Shown here: in pieces, positions 18,747-20,025 of the stretch | Layout: each line of letters starts with the position of its first letter | How positions within the stretch are numbered: the stretch's first letter is position 1 | IMG/VR virus record: IMGVR_UViG_3300008448_000888 | Span: 1 to 20,025 of that record | Reading direction: 5' to 3' (one strand) | DNA length: 20,025 bases | DNA from: a virus | Position numbers and translations under genes: made by a program | Notes under the pieces: generated by a model | What the model was told of the DNA's origin: nothing | The model's input: only the letters and a program-made list of their open reading frames with translations | Databases searched by the model: none

Positions 18747-19079
18747 TTATTCGTTTTGCGCTGATGAAAGTGCAATTAGTGCAGACTCAGTTAGATTAAT
18801 TCCTGATGCTGCTTCAATGATTTGATATACGGTTGGAAGATCAATAATGTCCTCAAGTTTTGCAATGTCCCCCGCCACCTCTGGTGCATACTGCTTCATA
18901 GCAATTTGTACACACTCAATAAGAAGTGTCATTGACTTATCATTGTTATCTTGTACCTTTGCCAGACCTTCAAACTTCTTCATAAATTCACGAAGAAGAG
19001 AAATTTTTAGTGGTCTGATATTAACCTTAGTACCGTCAATCAAAACGATTGTTTTTTCTTCATTTACGGTAGTGCTCAT
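18747..19079 (-). CDS. Tail assembly chaperone, short G-like paralogue
   Basis: This 110-residue protein corresponds to the N-terminal G-type domain of tail assembly chaperones. It aligns along its length with the first 95 residues of the preceding gene's product, sharing LI.G, PLKI..LR.FM, ECV.IAM.QY.PE and DLPTVY. It has no T-like extension: the chain ends after SALIALSSAQNE, and the tape measure gene begins 22 bases later. The start ATG has AGGAGGGG eight bases upstream, and an extended -10 motif lies about 31 bases upstream. It likely coats the tape measure protein before tube polymerisation, with the long paralogue supplying tube-protein contact. The paralogy is visible; the division of labour is inference from lambda G and GT. 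Confidence 0.85.
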   Translation of the reverse strand: MSTTVNEEKTIVLIDGTKVNIRPLKISLLREFMKKFEGLAKVQDNNDKSMTLLIECVQIAMKQYAPEVAGDIAKLEDIIDLPTVYQIIEAASGINLTESALIALSSAQNE

Positions 19080-19109
19080 CTATTTTACCCCTCCTATAAG
19101 GTTAAGTTA

Positions 19110-19118
19110 ATTATAGCA
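19110..19118 (-). promoter_or_regulatory. Extended -10 promoter motif (TGCTATAAT) before short chaperone
   Basis: The motif overlaps the last codons and stop of the long chaperone gene. The predicted start, about seven bases downstream, gives a leader near 24 bases with a complete AGGAGGGG site before the ATG at 19079. No -35 consensus is apparent. A dedicated promoter would allow the short form to be made in excess of the long form, as lambda G exceeds GT. Confidence 0.5.
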
Positions 19119-19827
19119 TAACAGAAGGGTCTTTTAGGTCTTCATAATCTAAGCCTAAGCCAATACCAAATCCAGCCTTTTGTGCATTAACTCCCTGCAG
19201 TGCCAAAACATCATTGGAATCATCTGTAGCACCTTTAGAAAATACTCTTGCTTTTAGGTCATCCCATTCTTTTTGTCCCTTTGTTTCTCCAGCCTGGGAA
19301 TCAATATCTACTCCTTGAATTGCTGCCATAAACTTTTTTTCTTGATAACTTAATTCTCTAATTGCAGACATTGTTGCTACTAGTTCAGGCATTGATAAAT
19401 TTCTTTCTAATTGGTCATAATCTTTCCAAATTCCCAACGTAAAAATTTCAGACTCAAGTTTAGCAAGATCTAGGTCTTTCCATGATGTTTTTTCATCTGA
19501 CTTTATTGCCTGATCTTTTACATTTTCTTCTGAATTACTACTTACTTCTATTCCACCAGCAATATCTAAAACTTTATATACAGTTGGAAGGTCCATGTTG
19601 TCTTCAATAAGTTCTGTTGATGTTGATATTTCTGGGCAATACTGCTCCATTGCTATTCTTACGCATTCAACCAAAATAGATATGGCTTCATCTTCTGTAC
19701 TTGACTCATTAACTTTATGGAAACAATCCATAAAATCTCTTAGGTATTTTATTTTTAATGGACCAAGTTCAAGTTCTCTGCCATTAATTAACTTTATTTT
19801 TTGTACATTATATATTCTAGTAGCCAT
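19111..19827 (-). CDS. Tail assembly chaperone, long G-T-like form
   Basis: The protein has 238 residues from the ATG at 19827. Residues 1-95 are the G-like domain shared with the next gene (PLKIKYLRDFM, ECVRIAMEQYCPE, DLPTVYKV). A charged linker (96-115) follows, then a T-like domain (about 116-175; LAKLESEIFTLGIWKDYD, LSMPELVATMSAIRELSYQE, AAIQGVD) and an acidic tail. In many phages G and T are joined by programmed frameshifting; here the frame is continuous. The GTG at 19857 is less likely because it lies inside the terminator hairpin. There is no Shine-Dalgarno before ATG 19827, but an extended -10 sits exactly upstream, so the mRNA is probably leaderless. Its role is to hold the tape measure and recruit tube protein. 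Confidence 0.88.
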   Translation of the reverse strand: MATRIYNVQKIKLINGRELELGPLKIKYLRDFMDCFHKVNESSTEDEAISILVECVRIAMEQYCPEISTSTELIEDNMDLPTVYKVLDIAGGIEVSSNSEENVKDQAIKSDEKTSWKDLDLAKLESEIFTLGIWKDYDQLERNLSMPELVATMSAIRELSYQEKKFMAAIQGVDIDSQAGETKGQKEWDDLKARVFSKGATDDSNDVLALQGVNAQKAGFGIGLGLDYEDLKDPSVML

Positions 19828-19833
19828 TATTTC

Positions 19834-19842
19834 ATTATACCA
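19834..19842 (-). promoter_or_regulatory. Extended -10 promoter giving a leaderless chaperone mRNA
   Basis: The minus strand reads TGG-TATAAT, then GAAATA, then ATG. Counted from the A of ATG as +1, the hexamer is at -12 to -7 and TG at -15/-14, the exact textbook positions of an extended -10 element. No ribosome binding site precedes the ATG. Together these predict transcription starting at the first base of the start codon. No -35 match was seen. Confidence 0.7.
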
Positions 19843-19873
19843 AACAACAAAGCCCACCTCCGAAGAGATGGGC
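19843..19873 (-). terminator. Intrinsic terminator after the tail tube gene
   Basis: The minus strand arms GCCCATCTC and GAGGTGGGC form a 9-bp stem closed by a UUCG tetraloop and followed by TTTGTTGTTT. One pair is a U-G wobble, stable only in the minus-strand RNA; on the plus strand it becomes a C-A mismatch. This fixes the strand. It lies about 20 bases after the TAA of the tube gene. Confidence 0.88.
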
Positions 19874-19893: not shown

Positions 19894-20025
19894 TTATGAA
19901 GCAGGTGTCCAGGTACGATCTACGATCTTACCATATGAACCTGATGTGTCTTCTGGAAGAAGACGGAATGAAACCTCAAACATAGATGCTTCGTCACGCT
20001 TTGCTGATACTGTAACATTTTCAAT
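19894..20025 (-). CDS. Tail tube (major tail) protein, C-terminal fragment
   Basis: The last 43 codons of a gene that enters from the right edge are visible. The frame ends SMFEVSFRLLPEDTSGSYG, then KIVDRTWTPAS and TAA. A strand with FEVSFRLLP and a short ordered tail is typical of siphovirus tube proteins. The position directly before the chaperone and tape measure genes is the standard place for the tube gene. A strong terminator follows, as expected for the most abundant tail protein. The start and most of the protein lie outside the window, so the call rests on a short fragment plus gene order. Confidence 0.78.
   Translation of the reverse strand: MENVTVSAKRDEASMFEVSFRLLPEDTSGSYGKIVDRTWTPAS

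Follow-up and report, generated by a model that had tools for sequence, protein, structure and literature searches.

How are the short and long forms of a tail assembly chaperone supplied in a phage in which the long form is encoded by one continuous ORF? According to PMC5009743, many copies of gpG and one of gpGT bind the tape measure protein, T binds the tail tube protein, and conservation of the G/GT frameshift is wide among long-tailed phages, T4 being the exception. The question is raised by the window, a stretch of 20,025 nt of viral DNA (positions 1 to 20,025 of the IMG/VR record IMGVR_UViG_3300008448_000888), in which an earlier note, made from the letters of the DNA, had described a long GT gene followed by a short G gene and had proposed that a gene duplication replaces the frameshift. 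The features concerned, all on the minus strand, are the following (for the identification of GT and G as chaperone genes, see below):

19894-20025, minus strand: major tail protein gene, of which only the 3' end, coding for the C-terminal 43 residues in frame from 20025, falls within the window
19843-19873, minus strand: putative intrinsic terminator, with a 9-bp stem (one G-U) and a TTCG loop at 19873-19852 and a T-rich tract at 19851-19843
19834-19842, minus strand: TGGTATAAT, the extended -10 motif of GT, at a distance of 6 nt from the start codon, so that a leaderless mRNA is predicted
19111-19827, minus strand: GT, putative fused long tail assembly chaperone gene, ATG start, 238 aa
19528-19827, minus strand: N (G-like) domain of GT, residues 1-100, which matches phrog_10504 and aligns with short G
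19114-19485, minus strand: T domain of GT, residues 115-238, which matches phrog_10474
19110-19118, minus strand: TGCTATAAT, the extended -10 motif of G, which overlaps the stop codon of GT
19088-19095, minus strand: Shine-Dalgarno (SD) sequence AGGAGGGG of short G, read from the sequence
18747-19079, minus strand: G, putative short tail assembly chaperone paralog gene, ATG start, 110 aa
10379-18724, minus strand: tape measure protein gene, which starts 22 nt past the G stop

The GT and G ORFs are both intact. The tandem paralogy noticed earlier is borne out by BLASTP, which aligns residues 1-99 of GT with G (40/102 identical, 39%, E 7e-25), a likeness that is, as judged from the two sequences, far beyond chance. 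Both proteins match phrog_10504 (E 3.8e-21 for GT and 2.4e-20 for G), and the BLASTP match and the common PHROG together reject the idea that the short protein belongs to an unrelated family. A separate family, phrog_10474, matches the C-terminal part of GT (residues 133-226, E 9e-14). The 238-aa ORF is, as had been noticed, one continuous gene with a G and a T domain. That the C-terminal part falls in a PHROG of its own is a sign that the N and T parts are separate ORFs elsewhere; the T domain of GT could be aligned with the T ORFs of Streptomyces and Rhodococcus phages. The window had no match in Rfam at gathering scores, its proteins had none in Pfam at the curated cutoff, and profiles compared with the sequences of solved structures gave nothing significant.

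Relatives of the locus were collected by four similarity scans of IMG/VR, to which six regions from named phages were added, and all counts given here are among the loci listed. A fused GT followed by G is present in 219 of the 294 classified loci and split G and T genes in 66 (57 + 7 + 2); the others are seven with GT only, one with G only, and one that is broken. These numbers are not population frequencies, and some loci share a contig or overlap on one. When loci are counted as distinct only if their GT+G (or G-T) DNA differs, at least 160 two-copy and at least 59 split loci remain, and an assembly artefact can be rejected given that the layout is common to so many. In the broken locus (L046:6337-6742), which was left out of both counts, a short tandem repeat interrupts the GT frame, and either a damaged phage or an assembly error could be responsible. 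The split loci, which include Streptomyces and Rhodococcus phages, with a joined CDS annotated in TunaTartare and Francesca, are the single-copy frameshifting relatives for which the earlier note had called: the T ORF is in the -1 frame in 59/59 distinct cases. When the complete records from which six of the loci come were searched, there were two copies in 4/4 two-copy records and one copy in 2/2 split records. A scan of bacterial and archaeal genomes with the T-domain alignment gave seven candidates, none of which was confirmed.

The slippery signal was counted as an in-frame heptamer X XXY YYZ in which YYY is AAA or TTT. A heptamer of the CCC/GGG-AAA type lies at the 3' end of G in 50 of the 59 distinct split loci listed (CCCAAAC in 34, CCCAAAT in 9, GGGAAAC in 5, and GGGAAAA in 2), and codon shuffling of the split loci gives a mean of 2.8/59 for any canonical heptamer. 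The heptamer is part of the same DP(N/E) tail motif in many of the split genes, both in metagenomic and in Streptomyces-type loci. The nine split loci that have no canonical heptamer are all Streptomyces-type, Coruscant, EGole, and Wofford among them, and have CCCGGAA at the same spot; in these loci (L132, L133, L137-L139, L141, and L221-L223), T is still at -1.

The two-copy loci listed are different. They have a CCC/GGG-AAA-type heptamer in 2/160 GT linkers and 0/160 short G genes, which agrees with the earlier proposal that the frameshift has been replaced. Any canonical heptamer is found in 13/160 GT linkers, against a codon-shuffle mean of 30.4, and at 12/160 short-G ends, against a shuffle mean of 6.9 and a maximum of 17. 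The shortage in the linkers is what selection against slippage in the fused gene might produce. In the window, G has no canonical in-frame heptamer, and the only one in GT, AAATTTA, is inside the T domain; the overlapping ORFs and slippery site of a frameshift-made G/GT pair are absent there, GT being one ORF. Moreover, the short G stops upstream of the next long ORF, at a median distance of 22 nt (range 10-41, n=151), and therefore has no T domain to read into.

We consider it probable that a duplication-derived G and a fused GT replace the frameshift in these phages, and that the G:GT ratio would be set by initiation at two start regions. In the ancestor, a single promoter would have served a single G gene, and ribosomes would have entered T by a -1 frameshift at CCCAAAC or GGGAAAC. 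This G would then have been duplicated and the upstream copy fused in frame to T, with the downstream copy keeping the promoter, the SD sequence, and the C-terminal tail type of G and losing the slippery site and T. The upstream GT would now be isolated by a terminator and transcribed from a -10 that is non-consensus in most loci and lies so near the ATG that the mRNA is predicted to be leaderless, and the downstream G has a consensus extended -10 (TGnTATAAT), a leader, and a strong SD sequence. The excess of G over GT, formerly set by the frameshift, would now be set by the strength of initiation at the two start regions. The roles proposed are those known from other G/GT systems: G and GT would bind the tape measure protein and T the tail tube protein.

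The upstream regions were compared by means of promoter and SD patterns that were drawn up from 87 loci viewed and then counted on all loci; two of the 160 two-copy loci lack 60 nt upstream of GT (hence n=158), and the single-copy promoter count concerns 58 of 59 loci, L189, with a short and probably damaged G, having been dropped. The -10 motif that had been noticed upstream of each copy, TGGTATAAT for GT and TGCTATAAT for G, is there in the window, where the minus strand has three TGnTATAAT-type sites compared with 0.78 expected. Upstream of GT, TGnTAnnnT is found in 154/158 loci, at 5-9 nt from the ATG in 146, with the hexamer TATAAT in only 24 and with an SD-like sequence in 0/158. Upstream of the short G, TGnTAnnnT is found in 160/160 loci at 23-38 nt from the start, with TATAAT in 153 and an SD-like sequence in 159/160. 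The single-copy G has the same two elements (TGnTAnnnT in 58/58, SD-like in 54). As controls, TGnTAnnnT is found in 5/151 tape-measure starts (SD-like in 24, the start codon being roughly chosen) and in 23/158 shuffled GT upstream regions. A terminator-like hairpin is present within 80 nt upstream of GT in 152/158 distinct loci, compared with 1/158 when shuffled, within 120 nt of the single-copy G in 48/59, and within 80 nt of the short G in 1/160. Three findings go beyond the earlier note: the terminator that precedes GT, the 6-nt spacing from which a leaderless GT mRNA is predicted, and the existence of single-copy relatives.

Another explanation would be that one late transcript covers GT and G and that ribosome binding alone, with an SD sequence on G only, sets the ratio, the -10-like motifs having no part in it. 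The tight GT-G spacing (27-80 nt in 125 loci), the near absolute difference in SD sequences, and the near absence of a hairpin before the short G would all be compatible with a single transcript. However, if the hairpin found before almost every GT works, GT needs its own promoter; moreover, extended -10 motifs present upstream of nearly all copies, at narrow distances, and rare at tape-measure starts, are not what a single transcript would lead one to expect. We therefore regard this explanation as unlikely, although it is the one that survives best beside initiation at two start regions.

For initiation of GT, a comparison is offered by Mycobacterium tuberculosis, in which, according to PMC3898074, the centre of TANNNT is found 7-12 bp ahead of the start site, promoters with TGN are the stronger ones, and leaderless genes are common. 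The GT transcript is predicted by analogy to begin at its ATG or a few bases from it, the spacing being that of M. tuberculosis and maybe not that of the host, which, to judge solely by the named relatives, would be an actinobacterium. The same paper reports higher RNA and protein levels for SD genes, with an mRNA:protein ratio that is the same for leaderless and SD genes; hence, leaderless need not mean weakly translated. Twelve GT regions are outside the 5-9 nt class. In four of them, a near variant of the motif stands at the normal distance; in three, the site that had been scored was spurious and the motif itself is at 6-7 nt; in the other five, the motif is 14-15 nt upstream of GT and goes with a G-rich leader, so that GT is not leaderless in every phage. 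Leaderless-type starts other than those of GT number 15 among 1549 coding-strand ORFs of at least 100 aa, chaperone ORFs included.

It could also be argued that the short G has some other job, as a tape-measure binder, a decoy, or a regulator, and that GT itself makes the short form by cryptic frameshifting, early termination, or proteolysis. Such a divergence of roles might be read into the identity of only 39% between the N domain and the short G in the window, and cryptic frameshifting into the canonical heptamers of the 13 GT linkers. Those heptamers, however, vary in type and position, their -1 tails end within 0-19 residues, and they are fewer than half as many as shuffling gives; the short G, for its part, resembles an ortholog of the single-copy G, among which it is nested in the tree and whose promoter and SD layout it has. 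The chances of this explanation appear slimmer than those of a single transcript, and a G that supplies the short form remains the reading that we prefer.

The history of this arrangement was approached through trees built from 48/160 two-copy and 28/59 split loci, or from subsets of these; with about 100 columns, and with bootstraps that did not settle in the G tree or the T tree, they do not allow the events to be put in order. Among the 124 G domains of one tree, the N domains of GT make up a clade (100/98), and so do the short G genes (100/96), whose clade is nested among the single-copy G of metagenomic loci. In the best G tree, the N clade is on a long branch outside the single-copy genes nearest to the short G, and in the best T trees some split T domains are among the fused ones. 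Under a simple history, these placements need loss, recombination, or long-branch error. They might be taken to mean that the two-copy state is the older and that some split phages are secondary losses back to frameshifting. Yet single origins are not rejected by AU tests (p 0.446 for the N domains and short G together, p 0.355 for one clade of fused T), and a regained heptamer would not easily fall in the same DP(N/E) tail motif in many split genes. An older two-copy state thus seems improbable, a shade more so than another job for G. The history can be read most simply as a single duplication in an ancestor that used the frameshift, after which the upstream copy would have fused with T and evolved faster.

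Both genes are under purifying selection, with median dN/dS values of 0.173 (383 pairs) and 0.177 (714 pairs). The mean identity is 0.67 for the short G compared with 0.49 for the N domain, the latter being the lower in 1095/1128 pairs. This better conservation of the short G is what would be expected of a more abundant form.

From their place and their relatives, we infer that GT is the long tail assembly chaperone (TAC-NC) of a long-tailed phage and G the short one (TAC-N), and that they would act as such. One locus (L001) has a GT that is 100% identical to that of the window; its ORF upstream of GT resembles the annotated major tail protein of Coruscant (41%, E 2.5e-49) and the ORF at the place of the tape measure resembles the annotated tape measure protein of Coruscant (30%, E 1.3e-62), so that, via these neighbours, the genes lie between those for the major tail and tape measure proteins. 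The N-terminal domain is common to the short and long forms, and both are homologous to annotated chaperones: in tblastn, GT matches chaperones of Coruscant at E 3e-33 and G that of Angela at E 1e-16 (the very best match of G, at 6e-17, is annotated as hypothetical). With GT as the query, there were matches in 132 phage records, 127 from Streptomyces phages and 5 from Rhodococcus phages; with G, there were matches in 127 Streptomyces records, with one place in each at E up to 0.1, which makes the Streptomyces phages look single-copy. Homologs are at the same position before the tape-measure gene in the Stanwilliamsviridae (Streptomyces phages) and in the Rhodococcus phages Trina and Francesca; of the phage records listed, many name them tail assembly chaperones and others call them hypothetical.

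In its AlphaFold model (mean pLDDT 76.6), G has a beta hairpin followed by helices. When this model was compared by Foldseek with 350,542 PDB chains, the HK97 tail assembly chaperone (PDB 2ob9) ranked first, at a non-significant E of 0.68 and a TM of 0.45; in BFVD, the first rank went to a protein named as a tail assembly chaperone (30% identity, E 4.2e-07), which is probably a sequence relative. For the GT model (mean pLDDT 78.2), the best 50 Foldseek matches were unspecific and did not include the HK97 chaperone; in a second look with VIA, the latter came first, tied with unrelated rows. The chain layout of the HK97 protein is similar to that of the window proteins (with VIA, G has a Z of 4.2 and GT one of 4.1), but there is no significant sequence match, and the fold score is too weak to prove kinship. 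That the two proteins are not tail assembly chaperones, as their falling below every Pfam cutoff and the non-significant match of G to a solved structure might suggest, is highly improbable given the annotated homologs before the tape-measure gene, the first rank of the HK97 chaperone for G, and the named BFVD match.

How does this arrangement compare with known systems? As in the lambda-type G/GT, which is made by a -1 frameshift, there is a short N form and a long N+T form, which would be tied to the tape measure and the tail tube; here, however, the long form is one continuous ORF, the short form is a separate paralog, and there is no slippery signal. The Stanwilliamsviridae (Coruscant, EGole, TunaTartare, and Wofford) and the Rhodococcus phages Trina and Francesca have homologous G and T in the same gene order, and the G genes of the Streptomyces phages also have an extended -10 upstream, but these phages are single-copy with T at -1, with a canonical heptamer in TunaTartare, Trina, and Francesca and CCCGGAA in Coruscant, EGole, and Wofford. 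The cluster O mycobacteriophages have predicted leaderless genes with a promoter that puts +1 on the first base of the start codon (PMC4351075); unlike here, these are other genes, and the chaperone genes there use a programmed frameshift. According to the PRFect report, chaperone frameshifting is not present in every SEA-PHAGES genome.

The closest precedent is T4, in which gp26 (116428-115802, 208 aa) and gp51 (116479-117228, 249 aa) are a shorter and a longer paralog made from separate genes (BLASTP E 2e-06, 20% identity), in principle the same layout. PF12322 covers about 200 residues of both, and phrog_634 is matched, at the C-terminus, by gp51 alone. However, the T4 genes are divergent and those of the window tandem, the long form of T4 is only about 40 residues longer than the short one, and the T4 record names both as baseplate hub proteins; moreover, single-copy frameshifting relatives survive here, and the control regions differ in a conserved way. 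PF12322 is matched by 2/70 members of the G family (best E 0.0012), and the window G does not match it at E 0.1. By its title, a 2022 paper by Vladimirov et al. concerns T4-like chaperones and suggests that something other than frameshifting is at work. The supply of chaperones by two genes may therefore not be new in principle, T4 having gp26 and gp51. In the parts covered of the tail chaperone literature, mostly open papers and hence weak evidence of absence, the GT-then-G arrangement was not found, nor was a description of an independent lineage that has sister forms which frameshift and in which an asymmetric layout of promoters and SD sequences is conserved.

In terms of what it means, the locus illustrates another way out of the G/GT frameshift, in which split relatives coexist with phages that have a fused gene plus a paralog. 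We lean, with less assurance than for the replacement itself, towards a broader reading in which a major lineage of uncultured phages, here at least 160 distinct loci, has escaped from programmed frameshifting, and in which duplication and a two-promoter device, with a leaderless GT set apart by a terminator and a G that is strongly initiated, would fix stoichiometry at transcription and at initiation. Part of this reading, to be held with the same reserve, is that the state before the escape would still be extant as the single-copy frameshifting relatives. Since split and two-copy phages stand side by side, it could be tested directly whether it is the frameshift itself or only its ratio that counts. 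There are also two warnings for annotation: joining G to T would be wrong in the two-copy lineage, and the lack of a slippery site need not mean the lack of a chaperone pair.

Two further observations concern starts of this type elsewhere. The third TGnTATAAT site of the window (2786-2778, minus strand) is 9 nt before the ATG of a gene at 2768-2328 (146 aa), with GGAGAG between, and this is perhaps another separately started gene. In several loci (L066:3842, L148:2137, L068:3814, L145:3245, L077:3803, L176:3210, and L063:3834), an ORF of 175-177 aa upstream of GT also has a leaderless-type start, in which TGGTAGAAT or a close variant is followed by 6 nt and the ATG.
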